Shown in pieces: positions 598 through 57,608 of a stretch of DNA of 64,000 bases. A program made the translations under genes and the position numbers. Positions within the stretch are counted from its first letter, which is position 1, and each line of letters begins with the position of its first letter. Source of the DNA: Candidatus Methanomethylophilus alvi Mx1201 (GTDB taxonomy: Archaea > Thermoplasmatota > Thermoplasmata > Methanomassiliicoccales > Methanomethylophilaceae); the NCBI RefSeq assembly GCF_000300255.2, contig NC_020913.1, forward strand, positions 1,548,692-1,612,691, given 5' to 3'. The notes below the pieces were generated by a model that was not told the origin of the DNA, searched no databases, and worked only from the letters and a program-made list of their open reading frames with translations.

Positions 598-949
598 TTC
601 CCCTCTGTTAGAGTCGTCCGTGACCCCAATGGTCCGTAAACACCTTCCATAAACGGCCCTTACGGGCCTAACTTCCCCTTGGAGGTATTCAGATACCTTT
701 CCAGAATTACGTTCGTTTTTCAATTTTCACCTTCGGCCCTGTTCCATAAACCCTCTAGGATGATGGAGGCGAACTGACAGGGAGGGAGTGAGATAATAAC
801 GGGATAATCTCAGAAAGAATATGGAGATAATTTTTAAGAAGTGATACCGCTTGACGGAAGAGTGATAATAATCGGAGAGTCATATGGCGGAAGATATGGA
901 AGATATCGCGTCATATGAATAACAATCTTTATAATATAGAAGAAGATGA
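598..949. other. Intergenic stretch, weak hairpin, AT-rich
   Basis: No convincing gene. A short hairpin (GGCCC, loop TTAC, GGGCC) at 655-668 lies about 60 bases after the Sel1 stop and could be a weak terminator. From about 780 the DNA becomes AT-rich. The region does not hold the missing C-terminal part of the ATPase remnant that begins at 950. Confidence 0.4.
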
Positions 950-1309
950 CTATAAATAAAGATACGAAAGGTTTTTATATACCTTGGATGAAAGCGGCTT
1001 GAGGGAATAATACACATCGTCACATTCCTGTATCTCGTCCAATATCAGCAATATCCTGCCATCCGCAGGAAGATTCTTGGAGAGAATTATCCTGTCGGCC
1101 AACCTGTCGGCATCCAAATCCCCCTGGAAGAGCAATCTGTCATCCGGATTGTCTGCGAAATTGAGGTAGGCGATGTTTTCATATTCCCTGTCGCCGAACT
1201 CCATGACAATGAATGTCTTGCCGACCTGACGGCAACCCAGCAAGATCATCGGCTTCCTGTCGGGATCGTCCTTCCACTCGAGCAACTCGGCATAGATCTT
1301 GCGCTCCAT
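950..1309 (-). pseudogene. Truncated AAA ATPase (ATPase/DUF4143 family) remnant
   Basis: The 119-residue frame matches the start of the large prokaryotic ATPase/DUF4143 family: a Walker A motif (LLGCRQVGKT, about residues 23-32), then the typical stretch before Walker B (ILLILDEIQE, about residues 85-94). Family members usually run to about 400 residues; here homology stops right after Walker B. The frame ends in TAG at 950-952, and reading through adds only six residues before TAA, so the TAG does not explain the missing 300 residues. It is the only frame annotated here that ends in TAG. I read it as a decayed gene fragment. No downstream remainder is visible between 598 and 950. Confidence 0.65.
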
Positions 1310-1521
1310 ACGTCAGCTATCACAATTCGGACACATTACTATTTTTAAGTGGGGTATTTGCAGTGAAACTACTGCTAAAATGCCTCTTAAAAACAGAAAA
1401 GGGAGATAACACATATCGATGGAATGACAGGACGGAAGCCGACGGAGCATTGTGCGGATGGCCGGCTTCCCGTTCCTCGCAAAGCCTTCTTCTGGAATTG
1501 GCATCGATGACCTTTGCCTGA

Positions 1522-2782: not shown

Positions 2783-2820
2783 ACGAAGTTATAAATGAAC
2801 GGTATCCGATTAGGTTGGAC

Positions 2821-3165
2821 ATGGGATTCTTCTCAAAAAACGATATAAGGATGGAAGAAGACGCATTCATCTTCAAGTCCAAATACTTCAGTTACGAGAT
2901 TCCCTACACGGACATCAAGGATGTGAAGCTGAGGGACGATATCGACCTGGGCCGTATGATCACCGGCACCAGCGGTGCCCTGTCCCACTACGGGAACTTC
3001 AAGAACGATGACTACGGATCGTACGACGTCATCTTCCATGTGACAGCCAAACTGCTCATTGTCCTGGAATTCGGGGAAGAGAAGCACGTCGTGTTCAACA
3101 TGGGCAACGTCGAGAGCACCAAAGACTTCTATAAGAAACTCAAGGGCAAAGCCAGACTCCTCTGA
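2821..3165 (+). CDS. Small hypothetical protein, possible PH-like fold
   Basis: A 114-residue soluble protein of unknown function. The pattern of short beta-type segments (EDAFIFKSKYFSYEIPYTDI, then an alternating strand region, then a C-terminal helix VESTKDFYKKLKGKARLL) resembles bacterial PH-like domains, but I see no diagnostic motif. A TATA box (TTATAAAT, 2789-2796) lies 28 bases before the ATG at 2821, which favours a leaderless ATG start over the TTG two codons upstream (2815). Ends in TGA. Confidence 0.6.
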   Translation: MGFFSKNDIRMEEDAFIFKSKYFSYEIPYTDIKDVKLRDDIDLGRMITGTSGALSHYGNFKNDDYGSYDVIFHVTAKLLIVLEFGEEKHVVFNMGNVESTKDFYKKLKGKARLL

Positions 3166-19900: not shown

Positions 19901-21293
19901 TGTCTATGTCCTCCTTGGAATAGAGGAATATCCTCTTCAGCCTCTCCGCATCCTTGACGGAGCGGTCGACGGTGCGTCCCGACGACACGTCCATGAGGTC
20001 TATGCGGTTCTTCTCCAGCCAATCCCTGTAGGGGTATGCGGATGCGAGGGCCCCCTTGATCTCCTTGTCGTAGAGGATCCTGCCCTCCTGGGTATCGATG
20101 AGCATCATCTTGCCCGGCATCAGACGGCCGACCTCGGCCGTCTCCCCTTCCGGCACCGGGATGACCCCCGCCTCGGAGGCCAGTATGAAAAGCCCGTCGG
20201 CAGTGACCGTATATCTGGCAGGACGGAGTCCGTTCCTGTCGAGAAGACCCCCGGCGAACCTGCCGTCCGTGAACAGGACCGCGGCGGGACCGTCCCAGGG
20301 CTCCATGAGTATCGAATTGTATTCGTAATACGCCTTCAGCGAATCCGGGATCGGATTCTTGCTGTTCCAAGACTCCGGGATCATGGCGGATATGGCGTTG
20401 GACATGGATAATCCGCTCAGGGTGAGGAACTCGAACACGTTGTCCAAGGAGGCGCTGTCGCTCATCCCGGGCTGGACTATGGGCGAGACCGCACTTATGT
20501 CGGGGAACACCGGGCTGCGGAGAATGCTCTCCCTGGCCTCCATCCAGGAGCGGTTCCCCTTGATCGTGTTTATCTCCCCGTTGTGGCACAGCATCCTGAA
20601 CGGCTGTGCCAGCTTCCACATGGGGACGGTATTGGTACTGAATCTGGAGTGGACCATCGCTATGGCGGATACGAAGTCCGGGTCGGAGAGGTCCAGATAG
20701 TAATGGCGGATCTGTTCAGGGGTCAGCATGCCCTTGTAGACGATCGTGCGGGTGGAGAGGCTGCATACGTAGAACTCGGGGTCCGATACGTCCCTCTCCA
20801 CCATCTTCCTGAGCTGGAACAGCTTACGCTCCAAGGTCTCCTGGCCATCGTAACTGCTGATGAAGACCTGGACGATGGTGGGCTCGGTCTCCAGGGCGAG
20901 AGGGCCGGGGACGGAATGGTCCACCGGGACCTCGCGCTCCCCTATGACCGAAAGACCCAGAATGCCGCAGTCCTCGCGGAGGACGCACATGTCGGCCTCG
21001 GCCTTCCTCTTCCCGTGGGGAAGGAATACTATCCCCGTACCGTAACGTCCGGCCTCCGGGACCTTGATCCCGCACTTGAGTATGTACTCGTGGGGGATCT
21101 GCAGGGTTATCCCGGAACCGTCGCCGGTACGTCCGTCCGCATTCTCGGCACCGCGATGTGCCAGGTTCTCGAGTATACGGAGCCCGTACTCCACTATCCG
21201 GTGGTCTTTGGCTCCGCCTATGTTCACGACCATCCCGACTCCGCACGAGTCCTTCTCATCCGCGGGGTCGTAAAGGCCACACTTCCCGTTCAT
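16902..21293 (-). CDS. gltB: Glutamate synthase, single full-length large chain
   Basis: The 1463-residue protein has all domains of bacterial or ferredoxin-type glutamate synthase in one chain. It has a class II amidotransferase whose catalytic Cys (C17, in DSCGVGMV) follows a short propeptide. The central and FMN-barrel region includes GEGGEDPSRN, and the 3Fe-4S cysteines lie in MGCVMCRKCQTNTCPVG (about residue 1100). A glycine-rich GXGXG helix domain ends the chain. It converts glutamine plus 2-oxoglutarate to two glutamates. No GltD-like small subunit is in the window, so ferredoxin is a likely donor (inference). Many archaea have this enzyme split into separate genes. GGAAG at 8 bases favours the ATG at 21293 over the upstream GTG. 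It follows glnN in the same operon. Ends in TGA. Confidence 0.95.
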   Translation of the reverse strand: MNGKCGLYDPADEKDSCGVGMVVNIGGAKDHRIVEYGLRILENLAHRGAENADGRTGDGSGITLQIPHEYILKCGIKVPEAGRYGTGIVFLPHGKRKAEADMCVLREDCGILGLSVIGEREVPVDHSVPGPLALETEPTIVQVFISSYDGQETLERKLFQLRKMVERDVSDPEFYVCSLSTRTIVYKGMLTPEQIRHYYLDLSDPDFVSAIAMVHSRFSTNTVPMWKLAQPFRMLCHNGEINTIKGNRSWMEARESILRSPVFPDISAVSPIVQPGMSDSASLDNVFEFLTLSGLSMSNAISAMIPESWNSKNPIPDSLKAYYEYNSILMEPWDGPAAVLFTDGRFAGGLLDRNGLRPARYTVTADGLFILASEAGVIPVPEGETAEVGRLMPGKMMLIDTQEGRILYDKEIKGALASAYPYRDWLEKNRIDLMDVSSGRTVDRSVKDAERLKRIFLYSKEDIDRILIPTVQQFKEPVSSAGCDIPLPILSDVPQLFFNYFRQSFAQVTNPAIDPIREELVMSVTGYVGSVHNDILSPTPDNCRIVKVRHPIITNREIDLLKNLKYRGFSTEVIPMTFRISDGPNGLEKAVQEICRKAERSVDDGESYIILSDRPVDKDHAAIPSLLAVSAVHQYLVGKKKRLQAGIIVESGEPREVEHIALLFSYGANLVNPYLAYEQIEELCRSGRIQYDPDTAEYRYIRVLEKGLMKIMSKMGISTIRSYRGSCLFEAVGLDRGMCQKYLSGTVSHMGGIGMAELGMEIISRHVSVFSGEPEELPDLGIYTYRAGGERHTWSPETVRLLHAAAADPSEYKAFAEKADLGDGLFFIRDLMEAKKGRPVPLEEVEPESEIVKRFVIEAMSFGAISREAHETMTEAANRLGAKSNCGEGGEDPSRNVPVGGRNIRSAVRQVASGRFGVNTEYLVNAEELQIKCAQGAKPGEGGQLMGFKVDKIIAATRHTLPGVTLISPPPHHDIYSIEDLKQLILDLRCVNPKARISVKLVSEAGVGTVASGVAKAGADKILISGADGGTGAAPMSSMRYAGLPWELGMAEAQQTLVSNGLRGRVVLQVDGQMKTGRDVVMAALLGAEEYGFAASVLVSMGCVMCRKCQTNTCPVGIATQDPEKRARFKGTPENVSNYLMAIARDVRERLASMGFRSLQEIIGRADLIETRSVSGKASSLDIWPIASVAPGQRTFSEGQPDMLEGILDRRMVEDVMSDAEAGRHVSATYSLDNTDRSVGAMLSGEIQRRGMDLRDGTVEVGFTGTAGQSFGAFLVKGVSFSLDGQANDFVGKGLSGGRISIFRSGHSPRCNVLAGNTVMYGATAGELYVAGRVGERFCVRNSGATAVAEGAGDHCCEYMTGGRVVILGRCGRNFAAGMSAGVAYVLDDSGDFDRRCNMDMVELELMEDPSDCEELKQILEKHVRYTGSPLAASLLSDWEESCKRFVKVMPVGYKMLLKDESN

Positions 21294-21314
21294 TCGCACA
21301 GCTTCCGTTACGGT

Positions 21315-23498
21315 TCAATGGATGAACAGCAGTTCCCTGTACTTGGGAAGAGGCCACATCTGGTCGTCGACCATCATCTCGAGGGAGTCCACATGGGACC
21401 TTATCTCTTCGAGCATCGGCGCCATCTTGTCGTGATACAGTATGGCGGCGGCACGGCCCTCCTCCTCGTTGGACAGCTTGGCATCGAGGGCGTCGAGTTC
21501 GTCCACCAGGCTCTCGGCGGCCGAGATGTCCTCGGAGATGCACTTGATGAGGTCCATCTGGGATGCGGCCATCTTCCTGAAGTCCTTGTCCCCGTAGATG
21601 TCCTTGAGGTTCCTGACGTTGTCCAGGAGGATGTTCTGGTACCTGATCGCCACGGGGATGACGTGGTTGGTGGTGAGGTCGCTGAGGACCTTGCCCTCGA
21701 TGGCCATCTTCTTGCAGTAGATCTCCCAGAAGACCTCCTTCCTGGAATCGAGCTCGACCTCGGTCATCACCTTGGTCTCCTCGAACACCTTGAGGGTCTG
21801 CTTGGACGTGAATGCATCGTATGTCAGGGGGACGGAGCTCTCGCAGTCGAGACCGCGCTTCTGGGCCTCCGCCTTCCACTCGTCGGAGTACCCGTTCCCG
21901 TCGAAGCATATGTTCTGACATGCCCTGAAGGTATCACGGGTCTCGTCGAGGACCGCCTGCATGACGGGGGTACCGGACTTGATCTTCCTGTCCACGGCCT
22001 TCTTGAACTGCTCGAGCTGGTATGCGAGGATGGTGTTGAGGACGGTGATAGGTCCGGAACAGTTGGCGCTGGATCCGACGGCCCTGAATTCGAACCTGTT
22101 GCCGGTGAATGCGAACGGGGACGTCCTGTTCCTGTCGGTGTTGTCCACGAGCAGCTCGGGGATCTGCGGTATGCCGAGACTGTATCCCTTCTTCCCGGTG
22201 ATCTTCACCATGTCCTTGCTGGCGAGGAGCTGGGCGAACGCATCGCTCACCTGCTTACCGAGGAAGGAGGATATGATCGCGGGAGGGGCCTCGTTGGCAC
22301 CGAGCCTGTGGGCATTGGTGGCGTTGAGGACCGTGGCCTTCAGGAGGGCGTTGTTGTCGTAGACCGCCTTGAGGGTGTTGGCCATGAAACAGAGGAACCT
22401 GAGGTTCTCCTCGTCGGTCTTACCGGGGGACATCAGTCCGATGCCGCTCTCGGTGCCGAGGGACCAGTTGCAATGCTTCCCGGACCCGTTGATGCCTGCG
22501 AAGGGCTTCTCGTGGAGGAGGACCTCGAATCCGTGCTTCTCCGCAACGTTCTTCATGATGGACATGAGCAGAAGGTTGTGGTCGATGGCCAGGTTGGCCG
22601 CCTCGTAGACGGGGGCTATCTCGAACTGGTTCGGAGCGACCTCGTTGTGCCTGGTCTTCACCGGGATCCCGAGCTTGTATGCCTCGAACTCGAGGTCCTT
22701 CATGAATTCCAGAACGCGCGGGGGTATGGCCGCGAAGTAATGGTCGTCCAACTGCTGGTTCCTGGCACTGTCGTGGCCGATGAGGGTGCGGTCCGTGAGG
22801 ACGAGGTCGGGACGCTGCATATACAGGTCCTTGTCGACGAGGAAGTACTCCTGCTCCCACCCGAGATAGGAGTGGATGACCTCGTCCCCCTCGCCGAAGT
22901 ACTCCAGGACATCCCTGGCGGCCTTGGTGACGGCGGAATCCGACTTCAGGAGAGGGGTCTTGTAGTCGAGAGCCTCCCCGGTATAGGATACGAAGACCGT
23001 GGGGATGCATAGGGTGTCGCCGATGACGAAGGCGGGCGACGACGGGTCCCATGCGGTATATCCTCTGGCCTCGAAAGTGTTCCTGAGCCCTCCGCTCGGG
23101 AACGAGGAAGCGTCCGGCTCCTGCTGGAAAAGCAGCTTGCCCTCGAACTTCTCGAGGGACTCGCCGTGACCGCGGGGATCCGCGAAGGAATCGTGCTTCT
23201 CGGCCGTACCGCCGGTAAGGGGCTGGAACCAGTGCGTGTAGTGGGTCGCCCCCAGGTCCATGGCCCATCTCTTCATACCCTCGGCGACGTGGTTGGCGAC
23301 GTTCCTGTCGAGGGTCGCCCCCCTCTCGACGGTCTCGTAGATCGACCTTCTGGTCTCCTCCGAAAGATATCTTCTCATCGCCGCCCTGTTGAAGACGTTG
23401 CGTCCGTAATAGGCGGAGGTCTCGCTCTCGGGGGCCACCGCGACGACGGGCTCCTTTGCGTTGGCATTCTCAACTGCAGTGAACCTGAAAGTCTGCAT
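21315..23498 (-). CDS. glnN: Glutamine synthetase type III
   Basis: A 727-residue type III (GlnN) glutamine synthetase, the long form known mainly from Bacteroides, clostridia and cyanobacteria. Visible marks are an N-terminal family-specific region (MDLGATHYTHWFQPLTGGTAEKHDSF spans 81-106), the GWEQEYFLVD catalytic block, NGSGKHCNWSLGT in the ATP/ammonia region and NRTSPFAFTGNRFEFRAVGS near the centre. It makes glutamine from glutamate, ammonia and ATP. gltB starts about 20 bases downstream, so the pair is a complete GS-GOGAT operon. A TATA box at 23521-23534 sits about 29 bases before the ATG (leaderless), and a perfect palindrome lies further upstream. Ends in TGA. Confidence 0.95.
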   Translation of the reverse strand: MQTFRFTAVENANAKEPVVAVAPESETSAYYGRNVFNRAAMRRYLSEETRRSIYETVERGATLDRNVANHVAEGMKRWAMDLGATHYTHWFQPLTGGTAEKHDSFADPRGHGESLEKFEGKLLFQQEPDASSFPSGGLRNTFEARGYTAWDPSSPAFVIGDTLCIPTVFVSYTGEALDYKTPLLKSDSAVTKAARDVLEYFGEGDEVIHSYLGWEQEYFLVDKDLYMQRPDLVLTDRTLIGHDSARNQQLDDHYFAAIPPRVLEFMKDLEFEAYKLGIPVKTRHNEVAPNQFEIAPVYEAANLAIDHNLLLMSIMKNVAEKHGFEVLLHEKPFAGINGSGKHCNWSLGTESGIGLMSPGKTDEENLRFLCFMANTLKAVYDNNALLKATVLNATNAHRLGANEAPPAIISSFLGKQVSDAFAQLLASKDMVKITGKKGYSLGIPQIPELLVDNTDRNRTSPFAFTGNRFEFRAVGSSANCSGPITVLNTILAYQLEQFKKAVDRKIKSGTPVMQAVLDETRDTFRACQNICFDGNGYSDEWKAEAQKRGLDCESSVPLTYDAFTSKQTLKVFEETKVMTEVELDSRKEVFWEIYCKKMAIEGKVLSDLTTNHVIPVAIRYQNILLDNVRNLKDIYGDKDFRKMAASQMDLIKCISEDISAAESLVDELDALDAKLSNEEEGRAAAILYHDKMAPMLEEIRSHVDSLEMMVDDQMWPLPKYRELLFIH

Positions 23499-28499: not shown

Positions 28500-28527
28500 G
28501 CCGGGCTCCGGCCCGGCCTGTTTTTTT
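28500..28527 (+). terminator. Intrinsic terminator of the SPFH cassette
   Basis: Seven-base stem GCCGGGC / GCCCGGC with loop TCCG, then seven T at 28521-28527. It closes the five-gene transcript. Confidence 0.75.
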
Positions 28528-28587
28528 ACAATACCCAGACGATACATATTTACCCCCTTCGGGGACTGCAGGGACAGAAGGTGCCCT

Positions 28588-29388
28588 ATGGAAAAGATAA
28601 TGATGGATGTCATCGACCTCGCCGTGAAGGCCGGCGAGATGGTACTCTGCGACTCCGGTTTCAAAGTCGACAGCAAAGGGACCAAGGAGAACTACGTGAC
28701 CTCCACCGACATAAAGGTCCAGGAGTATCTGAGGAGGGAACTGTCGAAGATCCTTCCGGGATCGTACTTCATGGGCGAGGAAGGGGACCTTCCGTCCGAG
28801 GACGACAGACTCAGGGGCAGCGACACCTGGGTATGGATAGTCGACCCCATAGATGGTACCGCCAACTACGCCAGAGGCTTGGAGAACAGTGTCGTATCCA
28901 TAGCACTTATGAGATCTGGCACTGTCGTGATGGGAGTCGTCCGCCACCCATATCTCGATATGACGTTCTACGCATACGAGGGACGGGGGGCGTTCATGAA
29001 CGGAGAAAGGATACATGTCTCCGACAGGGACTTGGAACACTCCATGCTCGCCACCGCCTGGTCGGCATACAACAAGGCACGCGCACCGGAATGCTTCCGC
29101 ATAACCGAGAAACTGTACTACATCTGTGAGGACATCAGAAGGACCGGGACGGCGGCATTCGAACTCTGCATGCTGGCCAAAGGGGCCATAGACATATACT
29201 TCGAGATCAACCTGGCTCCGTGGGACTATGCGGCGGCCAGCAGGATCGTCAAGGAGGCAGGGGGATACACGATGTCTCTGGACGGGGATCTGGACCTCTA
29301 TGCGTCCGGCCCCGCCATCGCCGGGAACACCTTGGCCAACGCGGAATATGTAAAGAAGGTCGCAGAGGAAGAGATCCGCAGGCGATGA
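28588..29388 (+). CDS. Inositol monophosphatase / FBPase family phosphatase
   Basis: The 266-residue protein carries the IMPase-family metal motifs: FMGEEGDLP, WIVDPIDGTANYARGLE and APWDYAAASRIVKEAGG near the C-terminus. It hydrolyses a sugar or inositol phosphate; archaeal members often act on both inositol-1-phosphate and fructose-1,6-bisphosphate. The frame is open far upstream through the SPFH gene on an unrelated frame, but homology and the terminator fix the start at the ATG 28588. It is a paralogue of the product at 7082. Ends in TGA. Confidence 0.88.
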   Translation: MEKIMMDVIDLAVKAGEMVLCDSGFKVDSKGTKENYVTSTDIKVQEYLRRELSKILPGSYFMGEEGDLPSEDDRLRGSDTWVWIVDPIDGTANYARGLENSVVSIALMRSGTVVMGVVRHPYLDMTFYAYEGRGAFMNGERIHVSDRDLEHSMLATAWSAYNKARAPECFRITEKLYYICEDIRRTGTAAFELCMLAKGAIDIYFEINLAPWDYAAASRIVKEAGGYTMSLDGDLDLYASGPAIAGNTLANAEYVKKVAEEEIRRR

Positions 29389-29799
29389 CGGCTTTTTTGG
29401 ACCTTTCCGAATGAAAGGCTACGCATTTTCAGATGGCCCTCTCCGCATACATACCCCCATATAACTTGTACGATAACGTTTTTACCTAACATTATTACGT
29501 TTTTCGTAATAAATGATGGAATTTAGTACGAAGATAGATTATTTATACTGTGAATCCGATATACATCTCAAGGAGGCGCGTAACAATAGGCAAACGTAAT
29601 ATGTCGGAATTCCGCGGAGGGAAGCACATCGAAATGAGGCTCCTCGCCAAGAAAGACGCTGGGCCAGTTGGCGCGTCGCAGTGCGGAAGTCTCTGAGCGG
29701 TCATCTCAGGTCCCTCGATCCGCGGCCAAACCCCCTTAACTCCTCCCAAGAGATCGTTTTTCCAGCAACCTATAATACCTTACGAACCGATGCTGACGT
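29389..29799. other. 410-bp intergenic region with a promoter-like element
   Basis: Contains an AT-rich part with an inverted repeat (TTATTACG, T5, CGTAATAA, about 29490-29511), a TATA-like ATTTATACT near 29540, then a GC-rich 190-base stretch beginning with AAGGAGG (about 29570). The GC-rich part encodes at most a 31-codon frame (ATG at 29601) ending in TGA. An unrecognised small RNA or a gene remnant is possible; I could not match RNase P, SRP or 5S RNA. The apt TATA box CCTATAATACC (29769-29779) closes the region. Confidence 0.4.
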
Positions 29800-30449: not shown

Positions 30450-30537
30450 TTCCGTACCATCGTCGGCACCCTATTAATTATGATTGGACAAACGACGCAC
30501 AATATCCTTTAATCGAACCTCCCCGATTACCGTCCCA

Positions 30538-31584
30538 ATGTCAAAGGTTGTAATGAACGACGGTGCTGGAGGGGAACTCATGCAGGAGTTCATCTCGAAG
30601 CACATCACCAGCCATTTCCCCAAAATGGACACGGAGGTGCCGCTGGACGCTTTGGACGACTCCGCGGTAGTGGACGACGTCGTCTTCACCATAGACGGCC
30701 ACACCGTTAACCCCCTTTTCTTCCCGGGAGGGGATATCGGGAAGATCGCCGTGTCCGGGACAGTCAACGACATCTCCGTCATGGGCGCGAAACCCATCGG
30801 GATAGCCAGCTCCGTGGTCTTAGAGGAAGGGCTCGACGCGGATATCGTGGACAGGGTCATGAAGAGCATGGGCGACACGGCCGCGTATGCAGGGGTGCCC
30901 ATCGTAACCGGAGACACCAAGGTCATGGGCGCAGGGGAACTGGACAAGATGGTCGTATCCACTGCGGCCATCGGAAAAAGACCGGACTACCTCGACCACG
31001 ACATGGAGGTCGCCAACTCGTACAGGAAGGTGGACAGCAGATGGTGCTCCGACTCCAACACCCGCCCGGGGGACGTCATAATCGTCTCCGGATACATGGG
31101 GGACCACGGCATAGCCCTTCTCTCGTTCAGGGAAGGGTACGGATTCGACAGCGTCATCGAATCGGATGTACAGCCTCTCAACAAGATGATTGAGAAAGGT
31201 CTCCGCGTAGGCGGGATCGTCGCCATGAAGGACCCCACCAGAGGAGGGCTTGCCAACACCCTCAACGAGTGGGCCGGGAAGTCGAAGTGCCAGCTGGACA
31301 TAGACGAGGAGTGCATACCTCTCAGGGACGGCGTCGTCAGCGCCTGCGAACTCCTGGGGATAGAACCTCTGAACATCGGGAACGAAGGGAAATGCGTGAT
31401 CTCCGTGGTCCCCGAGATGGCCGAGGAGGTCCTGAAGGCCATAAGGTCCACGCCGGAAGGAAAGGATGCGGCCATCATCGGTAAGGCATCCGAAGGACCC
31501 GGCAGGGTCGTTCTGCGTACGGAGATCGGCGGAAGGAGGATCCTCGAACCTCCGTCCGGCGACCCCGTCCCCAGGATATGCTGA
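30538..31584 (+). CDS. hypE: HypE, [NiFe]-hydrogenase maturation
   Basis: The 348-residue protein belongs to the AIR synthase/HypE superfamily: MNDGAGGELMQEFI at the N-terminus, GHTVNPLFFPGGDIGKIAV, PIGIASSVVLEEGLD, and the invariant C-terminal PRIC whose terminal Cys is carbamoylated and dehydrated to the cyanide ligand of the Ni-Fe site. This requires HypF, not seen here; HypB is at 47092. Homology fixes the ATG at 30538; an upstream in-frame ATG falls in the promoter region. Ends in TGA followed by a terminator. Confidence 0.95.
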   Translation: MSKVVMNDGAGGELMQEFISKHITSHFPKMDTEVPLDALDDSAVVDDVVFTIDGHTVNPLFFPGGDIGKIAVSGTVNDISVMGAKPIGIASSVVLEEGLDADIVDRVMKSMGDTAAYAGVPIVTGDTKVMGAGELDKMVVSTAAIGKRPDYLDHDMEVANSYRKVDSRWCSDSNTRPGDVIIVSGYMGDHGIALLSFREGYGFDSVIESDVQPLNKMIEKGLRVGGIVAMKDPTRGGLANTLNEWAGKSKCQLDIDEECIPLRDGVVSACELLGIEPLNIGNEGKCVISVVPEMAEEVLKAIRSTPEGKDAAIIGKASEGPGRVVLRTEIGGRRILEPPSGDPVPRIC

Positions 31585-42211: not shown

Positions 42212-42796
42212 ATGGAGTACAAGGACGGCCTCGACATGGCGGAGGATCCGGGGGTATATCCCCCATCGGAGGACAGCATCTTCCTGACGGAGTCCCTGGA
42301 CATACGCATCGGAGAAAAGGTCTTGGAGATCGGGACCGGATCCGGCATAGTATCCATCCAATGCGCACTGAACGGGGCGGATGTCGTCTGCGGGGACATA
42401 AATCCGAGGGCGGTCGCCCTCGCCAGGAGGAATGCCGCGGCCAACGGGGTCGATATCGACGTCAGGGAGACCGACGTATACTCCAACATAGAGGGGAGGT
42501 TCGACACCATCGTCTTCAACCTCCCGTATCTCCCGGTGGAGGACGAGGGAGAACTTGCGAAGGCATGGTCCGGAGGTCCGGACGGTCTCGGTCCCCTGCC
42601 CCGGCTTCTGGAGGGGGCGCCCGAGCACCTCCTGCCGGACGGAAGGGTCGTGGTGGTGGTATCGTCCCTCATGGACAGGGCCGGTCTCGACAAGACCTTG
42701 GAGGGGTACGAAGTGAAAGTCCTTGGGGAGCTCCCCCTGTTCTTCGAAAGACTGCAGGTACTGGAGATAAAACCCCTGCTGGCACATCGGAAGTAA
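42212..42796 (+). CDS. HemK2/Mtq2-type release-factor methyltransferase
   Basis: A 194-residue class I methyltransferase: motif I VLEIGTGSGIVSIQCAL, acidic GDINPRAVALARRN, and the NPPY-type catalytic motif FNLPYLPVEDEG (NLPY), typical of enzymes that methylate the Gln of release factor GGQ motifs. In archaea the target is probably aRF1. The motif NLPY instead of NPPY is a known variant in this subfamily, to my memory. TATA AAAATATCACC lies about 28 bases before the ATG. Ends in TAA. Confidence 0.85.
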   Translation: MEYKDGLDMAEDPGVYPPSEDSIFLTESLDIRIGEKVLEIGTGSGIVSIQCALNGADVVCGDINPRAVALARRNAAANGVDIDVRETDVYSNIEGRFDTIVFNLPYLPVEDEGELAKAWSGGPDGLGPLPRLLEGAPEHLLPDGRVVVVVSSLMDRAGLDKTLEGYEVKVLGELPLFFERLQVLEIKPLLAHRK

Positions 42797-42843
42797 ATCC
42801 ACCATGCCGCCACCGTATATACTGCATCCGCATACAAAGCGAC

Positions 42844-43713
42844 ATGGCCGATGCGTGGATTCTCTTCGCCTTCCTTTCTGCGATATTCGCCGCATTGACA
42901 TCCATCTTCGCCAAGATCGGTATCAAGGACGTCGACTCCAATCTGGCCACCGCCCTGCGTACGGTCGTGGTCCTGATAATGGCATGGGCCATGGTCGGGA
43001 TCGTCGGATCGTACGGCGATATGGGGGACATCACCCCGAGGACCTTTTTGTTCCTCATACTGTCCGGATTGGCGACCGGAGCGTCCTGGCTATGCTATTT
43101 CAAAGCTGTAAAGATAGGGAACGTCAACAAAGTCGCACCGATCGATAAGAGCAGTACCGTGCTGACCATGATACTCGCCTTCATCTTCCTGGGGGAATCG
43201 TTCACCGCATTGTCCGGGATCGGGATGGTCGTCATGTTCGCCGGCACCATGCTCATGATAGAGAGGAAGGACGTGGATGAGACCAAAAAGACCCGCGACT
43301 CGTGGCTGATCTACGCCATCCTCTCGGCAGTGTTCGCCGCGCTGACATCCATCCTCGGAAAGGTCGGCATATAGGGTGTCGAATCCAACCTGGGGACCGC
43401 CATACGTACGGCCGTTGTCCTCATCATGGCCTGGGCGATAGTATTCATGCAGAAGACCCAACACGACATAGGGTCCATCGGAAGGAGGGACGGAGGATTC
43501 CTCGTCCTCTCCGGACTGGCCACGGGAGCGTCGTGGCTGTGCTTCTACAAGGCCCTGCAGGACGGACCGGCATCCCTGGTCGTACCCATAGATAAACTCA
43601 GCATCCTGTTCACGGTCGTATTCGCAGTGGTCTTCCTCCACGAGAAGATGTCCAAGAAGTCCTGGATAGGTCTGGCCATGCTCGTATGCGGAACGCTTAT
43701 GCTGCTGCTCTGA
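42844..43713 (+). CDS. EamA/DMT transporter made of two like halves, in-frame TAG
   Basis: Reading through one TAG (43372-43374, codon 177) gives a 289-residue membrane protein with two EamA domains in the same frame. The halves are strikingly alike: FLSAIFAALTSIFAKIGIK and ILSAVFAALTSILGKVGI-TAG, then SNLATALRT and SNLGTAIRT, ILSGLATGASWLCYF and VLSGLATGASWLCFY. The TAG aligns with AAG (Lys). Each half has about five helices; relatives export small metabolites. Without readthrough the first product would end 115 residues early. TATA CCGTATATACT sits about 29 bases before the ATG. Ends in TGA. Confidence 0.75.
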
Positions 43714-43821
43714 ATGTAAAAACGGAACGGACATCGAAAGGACGAGGATACGGTCCCTTCCATGTCTGCGGACGGCGGATGATATCGTAAAGACCCAGAT
43801 CTGAAAAGAGAGCGGGTCGGA

Positions 43822-43837
43822 CCGCCCCGAAGGGCGG
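43822..43837. terminator. Hairpin between EamA gene and gatE
   Basis: Stem CCGCCC / GGGCGG with loop CGAA, in the spacer of the convergent genes. Confidence 0.5.
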
Positions 43838-43847
43838 CCCTCCGGCC

Positions 43848-45719
43848 TCATCCAAGAAGTTTCTTTATGGCGGCGGTGAGCAGGTCGGAAGCCTGCTTCC
43901 CGTCGATCTTTCCCCTGAGGGCACCCATGACAGGACCCATGAGGGGTCCGACCGCGGCCATCCCTTTGGATCTTACGAAATCGGCACGCTCCCCGACGAT
44001 CTTCTCTATGATCGCGGCGGCCTCCCCGGCATCCACTGCGGAAAGACCCAGCTTCTTGATGGCCGCATCCATGGCCGAGCCGGATGCCATCTCCTTCAGA
44101 AGTGCCGGGATCGCCTCCTTGGCGAACTTCCCCTCCTTCAGACCGGCGAACACCTGGTAGAGCTCATCGTAGGTGAAAAGGTCGGTGTCGACCCCGTCGT
44201 GCTCCAGCTCCTGGAATGTGTTCTGGAACGTCGTGGCCGCTACTGCGGACAGGCCGAACTCGTCGGAGATCTGGCAGAAGACGTCGTCCCTGCCCTGTCT
44301 GACGATCTGGTCGGCCTGCTGGGCGTTCAACCCGTAGTCCTTCATGAGTCTGGCCTTGATCTGCTCGGGGAACTCGGGCAGGTTGGCCCTTATCCTCTCC
44401 AGCCTCTCCTTGGTGATGGGCGTGGGCGGGACGTCGGTCTCCGGATACATCCTGGCCGCACCGGGGAGGGGTCTCGAGTACTTGGTGGTCCCGTCGGGCA
44501 GGGGGTCCCTGGTCTCTTCGGGGACGCCTTCGAGGGCGGTGTTGGCCCTTCCGACCGCAAGAGTGAGGGCGTCGGCGGCCTTCTTCTCGGAGGCGGCGCA
44601 GATGACGAACGCATCGTTCTCACCGTTCATACCGAGGAAATCCCTGAGGGCGTCGACATACTTCTGCTCGATACCGTAGTTGGGAAGTTCGTCGGAATGG
44701 AAGATCCCCTTGACCCCGACGGTCCTGGCATATTGGGCCATCTCGGAACCGAGACGGAGGGTCTTGTTGTCCCCGTTCATGACCCCGGCGAAACCGGGAA
44801 GCCTGACGGCGAGCACCTTGCCCTTGGACTTGATGGCGGAGGAGATGATCTTGGATTCGCAGTCCCTGAATACCTCGGTGGCATCCACCAGTTCTATCGG
44901 GACTGGCTTCACGCCCCTGCCTTTCAGAATGTCCCTGACCCTGAGCAGCATCTTCTGCCTCTTCACCTCGTTGGAGACGAAGTCGGGAAGCATCCTGAGC
45001 TCCTGGACACCTTTGATCTCGATACGGGCCCCGTCGGGAATGGATATGTTAAGGTCCTCCCTGATGGTGCCGAGCCCTCTCTTGACCCTCTTTGTGGCCC
45101 TCAGGAGGGTACCGATCCTCGAGGCGACCTCCATGACCTCCTCGGGAGTCCTCATATCGGGAGCGGTGGCGACCTCGATCAGGGGGATACCCAGACGGTC
45201 CGTCCTCCATGTGACCTCGGTATCGCTCGTCTCGATCTTCCTGCAGGCGTCCTCCTCCAGACAGACCGAGAGGATGCCGATCTTCCTGCCTATGGCCTCC
45301 ACGGACCCGTCGACGGCCACGAGGGACGTCCTCTGGAAACCGGACGTGTTGGATCCGTCCACGACGATCTTCCTCATGAACTGGACCTCGTCGATGACGC
45401 TGGCCCCCAGAAGCTCGCTGAAGATCAGGGTGGTCTCCATCGCATCGGGGTTGACCTCATGGGGAGGTTCCTCGTCGAGTTCCACGAGACAGGTCTCGCA
45501 GGGACAGCTCTGATACCTGTACCCGTATCCTCTCCTGAACTGTGCCAGCGCGGCACGGTCGACCTCCCCCATCTCGGAGGTGGTGGGCCTGAGCCTCCTG
45601 TATATGCCGCCGGTACCGTCCTCCGACAGCTCGCTGCGGCAATCGCAGAACAGCTTGTGGGTATCAAGCTGCTGGTGGATCTCGATGCCGCACATCATCT
45701 CGTATTTCTCATCGGTCAT
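43848..45719 (-). CDS. gatE: GatE, archaeal Glu-tRNA(Gln) amidotransferase subunit E
   Basis: The 623-residue protein has the GatB/GatE cradle domain (MCGIEIHQQLDTHKLFCDC, then GEVDRAALAQFRRG), zinc cysteines around CPCETC, the AspRS-like insertion region and a C-terminal GatB/YqeY helical domain (ending IDGKQASDLLTAAIKKLLG). With GatD it converts Glu-tRNA(Gln) to Gln-tRNA(Gln). Its ATG at 45719 overlaps the gatD stop (ATGA). A longer open frame upstream is inside gatD and is not used. Ends in TGA. Confidence 0.95.
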   Translation of the reverse strand: MTDEKYEMMCGIEIHQQLDTHKLFCDCRSELSEDGTGGIYRRLRPTTSEMGEVDRAALAQFRRGYGYRYQSCPCETCLVELDEEPPHEVNPDAMETTLIFSELLGASVIDEVQFMRKIVVDGSNTSGFQRTSLVAVDGSVEAIGRKIGILSVCLEEDACRKIETSDTEVTWRTDRLGIPLIEVATAPDMRTPEEVMEVASRIGTLLRATKRVKRGLGTIREDLNISIPDGARIEIKGVQELRMLPDFVSNEVKRQKMLLRVRDILKGRGVKPVPIELVDATEVFRDCESKIISSAIKSKGKVLAVRLPGFAGVMNGDNKTLRLGSEMAQYARTVGVKGIFHSDELPNYGIEQKYVDALRDFLGMNGENDAFVICAASEKKAADALTLAVGRANTALEGVPEETRDPLPDGTTKYSRPLPGAARMYPETDVPPTPITKERLERIRANLPEFPEQIKARLMKDYGLNAQQADQIVRQGRDDVFCQISDEFGLSAVAATTFQNTFQELEHDGVDTDLFTYDELYQVFAGLKEGKFAKEAIPALLKEMASGSAMDAAIKKLGLSAVDAGEAAAIIEKIVGERADFVRSKGMAAVGPLMGPVMGALRGKIDGKQASDLLTAAIKKLLG

Positions 45720-50856: not shown

Positions 50857-51651
50857 TCAGCGCCTGGCCTTCGGCTTACCGTAGTTCTTCACCGGCTTCC
50901 TCACCACGTAGATGAACGCGATGATGACGATGATGAAGATGATGGCCATCACGTAGTTCAGCCAGTCGTAGTTACCGTCCTCGTAATAGAACGTGGACTT
51001 CTCCAAGACTATGCTGCCATCGGAAGTCGCGACATAGAACGAATGCTGACCATGAGACAGGTTCGAACTGTAGTACTTGTAGGATATAGTACTGGAACTT
51101 CCGGGTGAGACCTTCAGCGTGGTGGCGCTGTCCTCGATCTTCTCTCCATCCACGAAGAAATAGACCGTCGTGTTGATGTCTACCTCCCCGTTGTTGGAGA
51201 TCGTGGCGGACAGGGTTATCGGTGTTACGACCTTGATGTCTACACTGTCGGTGTAGGTCATATCGCTGCCGCCGTCGATGGACTCCGTCCAGGTCACGGT
51301 AAGGGTGTACCTGCCGGTGGTGGTGGGCGCAGTCACCGTGAGGGTGACGACCTCTCCGTTATCCATGTCCCCGGAGGACGGGCTGACCGCACTGCTCTGG
51401 GTCGTCCCGGAGGAATTGGTCAGCTTAGCCGTATACGATATCGAGAGCGTGGTATACGAGGAGATCTCCTTAAACGTCATGTCGAACTTCAGTTCACCGC
51501 TGGGCTTTACAGAAGTCTCATCACCTGTTATCGAGTAGTTGGCGGTCTGTTCCGAATCGGCGGCCTCGGACTCAGAACCGGTCTCGCTTAGGAGAACGGC
51601 CCCGGCCGAGAAGACGACCAGAACGGCCGCGAGCATGGTCCATACCTTCAC
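50857..51651 (-). CDS. Secreted, membrane-anchored beta-sandwich protein coupled to aglB
   Basis: A 264-residue surface protein: N-terminal signal sequence (WTMLAAVLVVFSAGAVLLS), a Ser/Thr-rich ectodomain of two Ig/CARDB-like beta sandwiches (for example VTAPTTTGRYTLTVTW, then ATISNNGEVDINTTVYFF), and a C-terminal membrane anchor (YVMAIIFIIVIIAFIYVV) before a basic tail. Several N-x-S/T sites (NSSG, NTTV, NLSH) could be glycosylated. The GTG start overlaps the aglB stop (GTGA), so it is made together with the STT3-like protein and is a good candidate for its partner or substrate. Ends in TGA. Confidence 0.75.
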   Translation of the reverse strand: MKVWTMLAAVLVVFSAGAVLLSETGSESEAADSEQTANYSITGDETSVKPSGELKFDMTFKEISSYTTLSISYTAKLTNSSGTTQSSAVSPSSGDMDNGEVVTLTVTAPTTTGRYTLTVTWTESIDGGSDMTYTDSVDIKVVTPITLSATISNNGEVDINTTVYFFVDGEKIEDSATTLKVSPGSSSTISYKYYSSNLSHGQHSFYVATSDGSIVLEKSTFYYEDGNYDWLNYVMAIIFIIVIIAFIYVVRKPVKNYGKPKARR

Positions 51652-54600
51652 TTGCGTGAGAACACCCCCCTCTTGGATCCCGTCCAGATTATCAGGAGCA
51701 GGACCAGCACGGTCAGTATGAAGAGGGCCCAGAAGGTCATGCTGATCTTCTTACCCTCATTGGAAGCACCTCCGTCGGAGACAGAGCCGCTGTCCAGAGA
51801 CAGATCGGCCGTCTGAGCCTCCAGGGCGGCCGCGGATGCGATATTGCCGCTCACCGTGATCTCCGAACTGTCGGTCTTCAACGATACGGCATTTCCGGCC
51901 ACATCGGTAACGGTCACATCGACCTTGACCTTGGGAACGGCCGTACTGCTGCCGTCGGTGTTGATCACCATGACATACAGGGTGGTGGTCGAGAATCCGT
52001 TCAGATTGAACTTCTCGGTGCTGTCGCCTGCATAGATGATGTATCCGGTGCTGTCGACGACGAACACCTTCCAGCCGGTGACGGACGAATCGGACAGCGA
52101 TGCGGTCACATTCGCATACTCCAGGTTGGAGTTGGGGTTGACGATGGTTATCGCATACCTGTATACGGAACCGGCGGCGATATCGGAACTCGTCTTGTCG
52201 GCGGATGTGACGTTTACGACGGTATCGTTCACAGTGGAAGCGGCTGCATACTTGTTCGCAGGAACGATGCACTTGGCGACCTCGTTACCGACGGTGTCGG
52301 AAACGGTCACATACATGTTGGAGTCCCCGGCCCCGATCTTGGTGGCATCGAAATGTCCTTTCACGGTGACCGTTCCATTGCTCTCGCCGGCGATCGTCAG
52401 CGTGTAGGCCTTGTCCAATACGAACACGGAGCTTCCGGTTATCACGTAGGTCATGGAGTATTTGTTGGTGTTGAAGACCTTGATCTCCAGAGTTCCGTTT
52501 CCTGCGGTGTCGAAGGATCCGCTGACTACCTCTACGGCATCGTCGTAGGTAGATCCCACGCCATTGCTGATGACGGAGAAGTTGTAGGTGACATCCTTGT
52601 CCTCGACCGCCACAGACTCGTCGGCATCTGTCTTGAGCTCGTATTTGATATTGTTGCTCTCGACGGTGACCTTCACACTCATGCTGACCGTCACGTTCTT
52701 CGGAACGTTGAACTCGTAGTTTCCGTCCTTGATGTCGACTCCGAGCTCGTAGTCCACGGCATTGTATGTGTATTCCACGGTCATGCTTCCGTCCGCTGTC
52801 ACACCTACGTATCCGGAGACCTTCACCGTCTCGTAGGGAGAGGTCAGATCCACAGCGGATATGGAGGAGGTTATCTTCTGAGAGACTGCGACCTTGTCTT
52901 CTCCGGACTTGACGCTGAAGATGTACTCGTGGTTCTTCTCGAGGTAGTACTTCACAGTGACAGTGGTGTCCGATGTAGACTTGTCACCTTTCTCGTAAGT
53001 CCCGGTGTTTCCGTCGGAATCTTTCAGAGCGGTGATGCTGAGGGAGTCGCCATCGGTGTACTTGACCTCGACGGCATAGCACTCGAACCCGTTGGTCAGG
53101 GAATCGAGGGTGAGGTTGTTGTGACCGAGATAGACCGTGAAGTTGTCGTCTGCGTAGTATCCCTGGTTGAGGAGCTCGTCGACGACCAGGTAATACTTGC
53201 CGGCGAACAGCTGGATCGAGTTTCCGTTGTTCTTCTGAAGCTCGAAATATGTGGGAGTCTCGGAATCCTTGTCGGTGTAGTAGTAGATCTTCAGGTCGTA
53301 TTCGGTGGAGTTGGTCACTCCGATCTTCTTGACCTGCAGAGGCTTCTCCGCATCCTCGGTGAGTTCGAACGACATCGTGGACAGAGATGTGTTGGACGTA
53401 ACTCCGGTAGAGGAGTTGGTCTTGTCGTTCAGGACCTTCAGCAGAACGGCGTCCATTGCAGACATGGTCACATCTATGCTTCCATCCTTGGGCACCCAGA
53501 ACACCGCCTTTCCGGAAGTGTTGGTGAGTACGTACAGGTTGTAGGAGGTCTCTCCATCGGTGATCTTTCCGCTCAGACCGTAGAACGGCAGGGTCTTGGT
53601 GGACGAACTGCTGGTCCCGGTGTGGAAGTTGACGGTCTGACTGACGGAGTATGCGATGCGCAGGGAGATGTTCCCGTCCTCGCTGTCGGCGGATATGTCA
53701 CCGGCGACTTCGAGGGTCCTGAGATCCGCCTGACCGTCACCGTTGTAGGAGTACAGGGTGTAGGTGCCGCTAGGAACATAGGCGGTATACTGACCGTCAC
53801 CGTTGGTGGTGCAGCTGAACACTGCGCCGTCGTCACCCCTTATGAAGGTCACGGTGACTCCGGATGCGGCCTTGCCGTCGACGTCCTTGACCGTACCGGT
53901 CACGGAATAGACGGTCTTCCCTTCACCGAGAGCGATACCGGTGCCGGAAGATGTTCCGACTCCATAGTAGATCTTGCCATCGGATATGACATAGGCGGTA
54001 TAGGTGTTGGCGACCCCTCCGGGAGCAGGTACAAATGCCTTCGTATCGGAATACGCAATGGATGTGTATCCAATCGAGGAGATCGTAGGGGCAGATCCCG
54101 TACTGTTGTTGGTGATATTCATGTTGTTGGCAGGATATGCGGTAAGGGAGATGGTCTTGGATCCTCCGGACGACACGGACACGGTGGAGGTGGATGATAT
54201 GACATATCCGTTACCTGCATCTTGTGCACCGTATGTGCCGGCAGGGACGACTATCTTGGCCGACCCTGCGGAATCGGTGGTTCCCTTGAAGACCTCTCCG
54301 GTATCCACGTTGTAGACGCTTGCATCGGTTCCGGAGACCTTCGCACCGTATTCGTCGGTGACAGTGACGGTGACGGTCCCGGTGGGGACGGATATGCGAA
54401 GGCTTTCGATGGCGGAGCTTTCGATGGCGGAGGACACCGTCACCTTGGCGGTGGTCACTGAAGTACCGTCCGCAAGATAGAGGGTGGCGTTGTAGATGTC
54501 CGGGACCATGTGGACTTCGCTGATCAAACCGTTGCTTACAGCGGCCTGATATGATTTACCGGAAGCCACACCGGTGTAGACCAGGTATCCCTCGAATTTA

Positions 54601-57479
54601 TCATAAGGAGAACCGTCCGAGGAGAGAACAGTGGTCCCTTCTACGGCCACAGCGGTCAGTGCCAGATCCCTGTCGGACTCGAAACTTGCCTTGACGCGCG
54701 TATCCACGGCCGTACCGTCGTATGCATTGGTCGCTCCGACGTAGAACGTCACATAGTAGTCGGGCCCGTTGGGGACCGCCACCGTGTATTTACCGTCGCC
54801 GTCGGTGTATGCGGTGCTGCGCTGCACATACTTCCCGAGCTGGGAATCGTACTCGAACACCGCGACCTTCACACCCTTGACCGCACCGGTTCCGTCGATG
54901 ACGGTACCCGAGAGGTCGGTGTGGGCGGAGGCGTTGTTGCCGACGTATTCAAGCAGGACTACGGAGGACAGATAGTTGATGAGTCCGCCGTCGGTCTTCT
55001 GCTTCGCGATCGCCTCGTATGCATCCATGTCGACCCATCCGTCGGAGGATGCCGTGGCCGAGGAATCGGGGTTGTACATGACGTGCCAGTAGACCGCCTT
55101 GAAACCGTCGAGGGTGGCCGCCGGGGTGACGGTCACGCTCTTGTCGGCGAGAGCGAGGCTCTGCAGGAATGTCATACTGCTGCTGTAACCGCTGCCGTCG
55201 ATACCGAACAGGGCCTTCCACAGGAATGTCTGGTACATTGCATTGGTGTAGGACGTGTACCCGGTGGAGGAGTTGATCGAGTAGAACTCGCTCACCGCTC
55301 CGTAGGAACCGGTGGTGTAGTTGCCGAGGTACGCCATGGTGGAGAACGAGGAGCTGTCGTTGTAGTAGATGGGCAGCATGCTTCCGTCCACTTCTACGTA
55401 TTTGATTCCGTTGTAGTGCTTGGCAGAGACACATACGGAGGAGTACATCTCCTGGATCTTGTCCTCGGAGACGGTCTTCACGATGTAATCGGTTACGGCC
55501 AGGTACACCGCGTTCTCGTCCGTCAGGGCGGGGATGTCGATTCCGGAGAAGTCGTCGGAATTGGCCGCGATGTAATCCTTCGCACCGCTTCCGGTGGTCA
55601 GCCTCTCCATCTCGGCGTAGTCGAGACCGGCGGCCGCGATGTCCGCCCTGAAGTTCTCGAGGTCCGCCGAGAGCATTATACGGAGGGCGAACGTGGCGAC
55701 GACCTTCGCACTGCTATCGGACAGATAGACGGACGTCATCGCAGAGGCCCCTCCGCCCACGGCATCGGTGACGCTCTTGAATCCGCCCTTTATGACGGAA
55801 TCGTTGGCGTTACCTATCCAAGTTACGAGGGAACCGCTCTTGTCCACATCGGAATACTCGTTCCAGAGCGAGTCGATCATGGAGTCCTCGGCGGTGTTGA
55901 TCGTGTAGCCGAGCCCTCCGTAGTATCCGGACTTCTCGTCGTTGGTGGGGGTGGCGGCGTCGACGGCGTATACCGCGTTGGGCAATACCACCAGAAGAAC
56001 GGCCACCAGAAGGGTGGAGAACGGGAAGAACTTGAGTGCCTTCCTGGCACCGGCCTTGACACCGTTGCCCCTGAGGGATGCGAAGTATCCTTTCATGTCC
56101 ACGGACCTGATGATCCTCACGGACAGTGCGGAGCATCCGATGGCGAATGCGGCACCTGCCAATACGGCATAGTCCGCATTGAACCATCCCACAAAGAACA
56201 TGGAGAGGAGGAACAGCATGGTGAACCCGTACATCCTGGAGTTGGAGTGCTTCCTGTATCTGTAAAGCATCCATCCGCCGTAGATCAGCGGGAACCAGAG
56301 GGTGAGCCATCCGTAATAAGAGGCCATGCCGGAGATGCTTGTGCGGGATGCGCTGTTGACGAGGGACTGCATGAGGCTCCCGTTGTACACGCTGTTCCCG
56401 TGGGTCATCGCGTTGGATATCTCGGGCAGTCCGAGGGCGAAGGCGATGGCGACGACCGCGATGGCGACGATGAATACGGGGATCGTGACGACCCACGGCT
56501 TCTTCTCGACGGCCGCGAAGGCGATGCTGAACGCGATGGTCAGGAGACCGAGGACGAATCCACCAGAGAACACGGCGTCCCACAGTCCGACGGGGATGTA
56601 ATAACATGCTCCGAGGACGAGTCCGATGGCGAGGACCGTGTCGACTATGAGGACGGCGGACCACATGTCCCTTCCGCCGATACGCTGGACGATCATCGCT
56701 ATCGCGAGACAGACCGCCGCGACGACGACATACATCCTGAAATCGGTCCAGGAAAGTACGACCGCTGCGAAGAATATCCCTGCGAGGACGGTGTACATGA
56801 GGGCGGACTTGTTGTGGAAGACGCCCTTGGGACCGGCGACGGAATCCCTGTCCACCGCTTCGAATGCCGATGCCAGGAAGTAGACCATCCAGGCTGCGAC
56901 GAAGCAGATGAACGCGAAGCCCGTCCCGTTGGAGAACGGGGTCGTCATGATGAGCAGCGCGAAGAAGGCGTAGAACAAGGCTGCGACGATACCGATGGTC
57001 TCGTCTCCCTTGAACATCTTCTTGGCGGCCATGTAGACGGGGATGCAGGTGAGCGCTCCGAGTATGGGGGCGGACCATGCGAGGACTCCGGCGGCCGCGG
57101 TAGCGTCAGAGACCCCGAAGAGGGTCACGACGAACGCGATGGCGGCGATAATATAGTCGAAAAGCGGACCGAACGTGTTCGCCGATCCGAAGGGGTAGTT
57201 CAATGCCGCATCCCTGACGGGACTGTAGGTACCCGCAAGGATCTCCTCCACTATGCGGAGGTTGTTGGAAGCGCTTGAACCGCCGGACAACGCATAGTTG
57301 TCTCCGGCGGAGATCCCGTACGCGAATACGAACCTCATGAGGAAGGCTGCGATGATGATCGCGAACATGGAAAGCAAGCGCCAATGCTCTCTGAACCATA
57401 CGCCCTTGCTCCCGCTGTTCGCGGAAGACTTGGGTTCCCCATCATCCGGGGCGGCTTTTCCGATAGCAAATTTGCGCAT
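51648..57479 (-). CDS. aglB: Very large STT3/AglB-like oligosaccharyltransferase
   Basis: The product (about 1943 residues) is twice the usual AglB size. The N-terminal 500 residues have about a dozen membrane helices with STT3 features: after helix 1 the GDNYALSGG loop and SPVRDAALNYPFGSANTFGP. The soluble part follows, but the usual WWDxG acceptor motif is not seen; the nearest stretch is SLVTWIGNANDSV (about residue 552). From about 855 it carries several CarboxypepD_reg-like beta domains (LSGTVIDGTGAVKGVKVAVF; VTGTVKDVDGKAASGVTVTF), then CARDB-like domains (about 1770), and a final helix MTFWALFILTVLVLLLIIW. It should N-glycosylate surface proteins, or be an altered relative. A GGAGAA ribosome site and TATA box (57527-57535) support the ATG at 57479. 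Ends in TGA. Confidence 0.85.
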   Translation of the reverse strand: MRKFAIGKAAPDDGEPKSSANSGSKGVWFREHWRLLSMFAIIIAAFLMRFVFAYGISAGDNYALSGGSSASNNLRIVEEILAGTYSPVRDAALNYPFGSANTFGPLFDYIIAAIAFVVTLFGVSDATAAAGVLAWSAPILGALTCIPVYMAAKKMFKGDETIGIVAALFYAFFALLIMTTPFSNGTGFAFICFVAAWMVYFLASAFEAVDRDSVAGPKGVFHNKSALMYTVLAGIFFAAVVLSWTDFRMYVVVAAVCLAIAMIVQRIGGRDMWSAVLIVDTVLAIGLVLGACYYIPVGLWDAVFSGGFVLGLLTIAFSIAFAAVEKKPWVVTIPVFIVAIAVVAIAFALGLPEISNAMTHGNSVYNGSLMQSLVNSASRTSISGMASYYGWLTLWFPLIYGGWMLYRYRKHSNSRMYGFTMLFLLSMFFVGWFNADYAVLAGAAFAIGCSALSVRIIRSVDMKGYFASLRGNGVKAGARKALKFFPFSTLLVAVLLVVLPNAVYAVDAATPTNDEKSGYYGGLGYTINTAEDSMIDSLWNEYSDVDKSGSLVTWIGNANDSVIKGGFKSVTDAVGGGASAMTSVYLSDSSAKVVATFALRIMLSADLENFRADIAAAGLDYAEMERLTTGSGAKDYIAANSDDFSGIDIPALTDENAVYLAVTDYIVKTVSEDKIQEMYSSVCVSAKHYNGIKYVEVDGSMLPIYYNDSSSFSTMAYLGNYTTGSYGAVSEFYSINSSTGYTSYTNAMYQTFLWKALFGIDGSGYSSSMTFLQSLALADKSVTVTPAATLDGFKAVYWHVMYNPDSSATASSDGWVDMDAYEAIAKQKTDGGLINYLSSVVLLEYVGNNASAHTDLSGTVIDGTGAVKGVKVAVFEYDSQLGKYVQRSTAYTDGDGKYTVAVPNGPDYYVTFYVGATNAYDGTAVDTRVKASFESDRDLALTAVAVEGTTVLSSDGSPYDKFEGYLVYTGVASGKSYQAAVSNGLISEVHMVPDIYNATLYLADGTSVTTAKVTVSSAIESSAIESLRISVPTGTVTVTVTDEYGAKVSGTDASVYNVDTGEVFKGTTDSAGSAKIVVPAGTYGAQDAGNGYVISSTSTVSVSSGGSKTISLTAYPANNMNITNNSTGSAPTISSIGYTSIAYSDTKAFVPAPGGVANTYTAYVISDGKIYYGVGTSSGTGIALGEGKTVYSVTGTVKDVDGKAASGVTVTFIRGDDGAVFSCTTNGDGQYTAYVPSGTYTLYSYNGDGQADLRTLEVAGDISADSEDGNISLRIAYSVSQTVNFHTGTSSSSTKTLPFYGLSGKITDGETSYNLYVLTNTSGKAVFWVPKDGSIDVTMSAMDAVLLKVLNDKTNSSTGVTSNTSLSTMSFELTEDAEKPLQVKKIGVTNSTEYDLKIYYYTDKDSETPTYFELQKNNGNSIQLFAGKYYLVVDELLNQGYYADDNFTVYLGHNNLTLDSLTNGFECYAVEVKYTDGDSLSITALKDSDGNTGTYEKGDKSTSDTTVTVKYYLEKNHEYIFSVKSGEDKVAVSQKITSSISAVDLTSPYETVKVSGYVGVTADGSMTVEYTYNAVDYELGVDIKDGNYEFNVPKNVTVSMSVKVTVESNNIKYELKTDADESVAVEDKDVTYNFSVISNGVGSTYDDAVEVVSGSFDTAGNGTLEIKVFNTNKYSMTYVITGSSVFVLDKAYTLTIAGESNGTVTVKGHFDATKIGAGDSNMYVTVSDTVGNEVAKCIVPANKYAAASTVNDTVVNVTSADKTSSDIAAGSVYRYAITIVNPNSNLEYANVTASLSDSSVTGWKVFVVDSTGYIIYAGDSTEKFNLNGFSTTTLYVMVINTDGSSTAVPKVKVDVTVTDVAGNAVSLKTDSSEITVSGNIASAAALEAQTADLSLDSGSVSDGGASNEGKKISMTFWALFILTVLVLLLIIWTGSKRGVFSRK

Positions 57480-57608
57480 TCTCGATTCTCCGTAACGATA
57501 TCGAATGCGCAAACATGCCTGATTTGTTATTTATAGGTTTACGGGCGCGTATTATTAATATAATATATTGGGGAAGGAGTTGGATGGAAGAACAGGACGC
57601 TGGCTCTT

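Follow-up and report, generated by a model that had tools for sequence, protein, structure and literature searches.

An in-frame amber codon, probably read as pyrrolysine, in an EamA transporter gene of Candidatus Methanomethylophilus alvus

The transporter gene and its internal TAG

The window analysed here, meaning the whole stretch of 64,000 nucleotides, carries on its plus strand a gene for an EamA/drug-metabolite-type transporter (42844..43713), whose 289 codons contain a single internal TAG at codon 177 (43372..43374) and end at a TGA (43711-43713). This TAG is the sole internal stop of a frame that is otherwise intact. Using the EamA model PF00892 we obtained 80.7 bits for the part before the TAG alone, 67.3 bits for the part after it and 152.7 bits for the 289-residue protein read through the amber codon, in which two EamA repeats are present as two separate stretches of PF00892 match. 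Since each piece matches the model independently, the continuation of the frame across the TAG is not due to chance, in agreement with a preliminary description of this DNA that had taken the frame to be one gene apart from the TAG and had seen homology resume in the same frame behind it. The first 176 codons (42844..43371), the part left over should translation end at the TAG, hold the first EamA repeat and one helix, and the 112 codons 3' of the TAG (43375..43710) hold most of the second repeat; the two halves of the protein are 52% identical over 137 residues when the amber is typed as lysine. In-frame ATG codons within 126 bases 3' of the TAG are found at 43426 and 43447 only, and a search of 42700-43900 for a PYLIS-like element gave no Rfam match at E up to 1.

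Transporters of the EamA / drug-metabolite type have ten membrane helices. The structure predicted here from 29 sequences, with a mean pLDDT of 83.4 (75 over residues 171-180), displays 14 helical elements, some of them short or split, which amount to ten only by our own grouping. Residue 177 is placed by the model within a predicted short loop (residues 176-180) flanked by helices 151-175 and 181-203, and by our count from the model's helix list termination at this point would cost the protein its final four membrane helices. Of the solved structures, LicB gave the best sequence match, with a weak E-value (8.5e-05) and over one half of the protein only.

A gene of this kind has been described before. 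Borrel et al. (2014; PMC4153887, Table 7) count AGI86346.1, a 'transporter family protein' of 289 aa, among the proteins of Ca. M. alvus that putatively contain Pyl, and its read-through length and description are those of the window gene. Its position is compatible, though not an exact match: counted from the type III glutamine synthetase gene (GlnN; 21315..23498, minus strand; PF12437, 254 bits), taken as the counterpart of the M. alvus GlnN AGI86325.1 (PMC4153887), the EamA gene is the 19th, against an accession gap of 21, in a hand-picked gene list that omits small ORFs and holds one doubtful gene. The G+C content of the window is 57.1%, the values given for M. alvus being 55.6% for the genome and 56.3% for the genes (PMC4153887). 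The window gene is probably AGI86346.1, as judged from length, description and gene order; no difference between the two is known at this level, and Table 7 gives no site number. The amber codon of the matching transporter gene is already known as a published prediction (PMC4153887). The window also holds two very long ORFs on the minus strand, at 16902-21299 (1465 aa) and 51648-57512 (1954 aa), with counterparts in relatives at 72% and 67% identity, respectively.

Residue 177 among relatives

The preliminary description held that the TAG replaces a conserved lysine codon, the paralogous position of the first half being AAG (Lys28, 42925..42927). This argument fails because orthologues mostly carry Glu at site 177, and it calls for the caution that a paralogous residue should not be taken as the amino acid that was replaced. 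Among the best 120 of the 7996 relatives scored in the database search the site is Glu in 115, Ser in two, and Ala, Asp and Gln in one each, with Lys in none. The comparison was extended to 26 orthologue loci from 25 family genomes, a set that includes a second copy from genome G069 (48%) and one partial match from G068; there the site is Glu in 21 (13 GAG and 8 GAA), Ala in two, and Ser, Gln and Thr in one each. Neither Lys nor TAG, the two states for which the preliminary description proposed looking in orthologues, occurs at site 177 in any of the 26 loci.

The closest proteins among the matches listed, P0002 (99% identity) and P0003 (98%), have Glu at this site, and the window protein and P0002 disagree at two residues only, 30 and 177, being identical from 178 onward. 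More distant orthologues in G001, G003 and G006 (81-84% identity, the closest being that of G006 at 84%) are free of internal stops, and the nearest genome with a name is that of Candidatus Methanomethylophilus sp. 1R26 (81%), whose locus alone was confirmed in the search concerned. Among the matches listed there is no second record with TAG at codon 177, and the 120 matches, in which members inside clusters are not displayed, include no form of about 176 residues. The GAG codon found in 13 of the orthologue loci lies one base from TAG. Considering the prevalence of Glu at the site and the few differences from P0002, a recent single-base change from an ancestral GAG to TAG is the likely event.

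We also compared substitution rates on both sides of the amber codon against four relatives, obtaining dN of 0.13-0.17 and dS of 0.92-1.03 downstream, and dN of 0.09-0.15 and dS of 0.98-1.09 upstream. The codons behind the TAG look as constrained as those before it in this comparison, which mostly covers divergence older than the TAG and is hardly informative about the gene since then.

Pyrrolysine machinery and TAG codons in the lineage

PylS was found above the cut-off in all 14 genus genomes examined, against one of 14 control genomes, and in 74 of the 102 family genomes. PylB reached its cut-off in 13 of the 14 genus genomes, the miss being G006, where an assembly gap is possible. In this same genome tRNA-Pyl, PylS, PylC and PylD are consecutive; for M. 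alvus the arrangement described is pylTSCD, with pylB located elsewhere (PMC9499178). ARAGORN detected a tRNA-Pyl near pylS in four of the 14 genus loci, and a weak G010 match of the PylB search (E 1e-7) contains a TAG. For M. alvus itself the complete Pyl machinery has been described, together with 16 predicted Pyl proteins that are not methyltransferases (PMC4153887). The suggestion of pyrrolysine in the preliminary description is made likely by this machinery, while the reason offered for it, a lysine analogue at a lysine site, is undercut by the Glu of most orthologues. Codon 177 is probably decoded as pyrrolysine. An archaeal code in which every TAG is read as pyrrolysine has reportedly been the subject of a Science paper of 2025.

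None of 47 window genes ends at TAG (40 TGA, 7 TAA), these genes being hand-picked from the ORF list, with one doubtful member (28581-29129), several small ORFs omitted and, in the first 5 kb, only 2156-2782 and 2815-3165 retained. The same holds for the ends of their orthologues in the corresponding regions of G006 (0/41), G003 (0/40), G001 (0/8) and G014 (0/1), 0/90 in total, after dropping rows with less than 50% identity or less than 70% coverage; these ends are not independent, as the genes are orthologues of one another, and one further G003 orthologue ran off the edge so that its end was not read. At the genome scale, TAG is given as 1.6% of the stops in M. alvus against 11.3% in M. luminyensis (PMC4153887). 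One TAG terminator in the window, at 950 (minus strand), was set aside. It ends an AAA_14 ATPase fragment (929-1312, minus strand) that is 86% identical to its G003 copy until residue 110 and shows no similarity from there on, the homology ending 10 residues before the stop; the fragment looks broken, and including it in the gene count would make 1/48.

Internal stops were sought across the family in two kinds of gene. At E 1e-40 one of the 26 EamA loci has an internal stop, a TAG in G014 (locus L009, C9:10504-11349, 57-58% identity), located at query residue 65 and unrelated to codon 177. The DUF531 family, searched at E 1e-20, gave 88 stretches in 87 genomes; three of them have an internal stop, in each case a single TAG (G005:C3:339495-340007, G006:C15:13116-13628 and G056:C34:5858-6367); DUF531 is also among the putative Pyl genes of M. 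alvus (PMC4153887). All four genomes with these internal TAGs (G014, G005, G006 and G056) have PylS. A further DUF531 match, G001:C37:79067-79578, comes in two overlapping pieces, perhaps owing to an assembly frameshift. The weak EamA match of G011 (E 1e-5), with three TGA and one TAG, was left out of the orthologue count.

Several other candidates were rejected. Among the relatives, the doubtful gene 28581-29129 showed a TGA in G006, and 30484-31584 showed a TAA at its residue 9 in G003; both were taken as lying in the wrong frame or upstream of the true start. In the window, the TAGs at 142, 8594, 13815, 31655, 31661, 47785, 57928, 60160 and 60238 are upstream of the ORF start codon and were taken as extragenic, and the frame of six TAGs within 28500-29435 (minus strand), opposite plus-strand ORFs, was taken as wrong. 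The TAG at 16543 (minus strand) was rejected as antisense: neither of its flanks matches Pfam, and the DNA of relatives has stops in this frame too.

Interpretation of the amber codon

The explanation that we favor, with a probability of about 0.82, is that the M. alvus EamA gene (AGI86346.1) has undergone a recent Glu-to-amber change that is read as pyrrolysine by routine suppression and is near-neutral. A single-base change of GAG to TAG would have put an amber codon into the predicted short loop between two membrane helices. This codon would then be decoded by PylS-charged tRNA-Pyl in competition with the release factor, which is in line with a review that regards such competition as likely and describes no required signal (PMC9499178). 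The products would be a full-length transporter of 289 residues with Pyl177 and some truncated product of 176 residues. The loop would tolerate Pyl177, given that Lys occupies the paralogous loop in the first half, and the change would therefore be near-neutral rather than functional.

The foremost alternative, to which we give a small but real chance, is an ordinary nonsense allele, in which translation mostly stops at the TAG and the gene is, in this strain, a young pseudogene that has not started to decay. Because Glu is the residue of the relatives listed at 98-99% identity, the change may indeed be too recent for decay to be visible, and the gene seems dispensable, since 77 of the 102 family genomes have no EamA match at E 1e-40 (assembly gaps may explain some of these). 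However, such an allele would have arisen in a lineage that possesses the pyrrolysine machinery and shuns TAG as a terminator, both in the window and among M. alvus stops at large (PMC4153887), and in which the other internal stops of strong matches are TAG only. The intact state of the frame argues against it as well.

Somewhat less probable still is that the source sequence contains a base error and that GAG (Glu) is the true codon of the strain. TAG and GAG are one base apart, and the matches listed hold no other record with the amber codon; AGI86346.1 lends no independent support, because it and the window may come from one and the same record. Against an error, an in-frame TAG is to be expected in this organism anyway, since 16 amber genes other than those for methyltransferases are predicted in M. 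alvus (PMC4153887) and its relatives have ambers of their own.

A functional pyrrolysine, with Pyl177 acting in transport or co-opted so that transporter output depends on Pyl supply and export is adjusted to the methylamines available to the strain, is very improbable: Lys does stand at the paralogous loop position of the same protein, and conservation of the loop at the site is high, but none of the 120 listed relatives has Lys at site 177, Lys and TAG are both missing there from the 26 loci, and the sole other amber of an EamA gene is at query residue 65.

The methylamine methyltransferases differ in this respect. Their pyrrolysine is considered catalytic, and in MtmB, MtbB and MttB the amber codon recurs in the homologues of several lineages, whereas TAG at codon 177 of the EamA gene is found in 0/26 orthologue loci. 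A parallel may be the tRNA-His guanylyltransferase, in which, to go by the title of Heinemann et al. 2009, pyrrolysine was reportedly acquired by neutral evolution, likewise outside the methylamine enzymes and in a different protein; the lineage in that case is the Methanosarcinaceae. With the near-neutral Glu-to-amber change as the favored reading, the EamA gene would be a clean example of an efficiently suppressed stop codon drifting into ordinary genes, in a gene that is otherwise intact; ambers at another site of the EamA gene and in DUF531 of related genomes accompany it. Taken alone, the amber codon of this gene does not alter existing knowledge. The other amber genes of Methanomassiliicoccales encode different proteins, likewise with ordinary functions and an in-frame TAG, and ISO4-H5 is reported to have 46 amber-containing genes, methyltransferases included (PMC5011839). 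The preliminary description had noted that pyrrolysine is rarely shown outside the methylamine methyltransferases. As an argument from rarity this is weakened, because a gene matching this one has appeared in a published list (PMC4153887) and the ISO4-H5 genes are so numerous; both sources present such proteins without a demonstrated Pyl residue. Half of the 16 non-methyltransferase amber genes of M. alvus have amber-free homologues in the other two genomes analysed there (PMC4153887).
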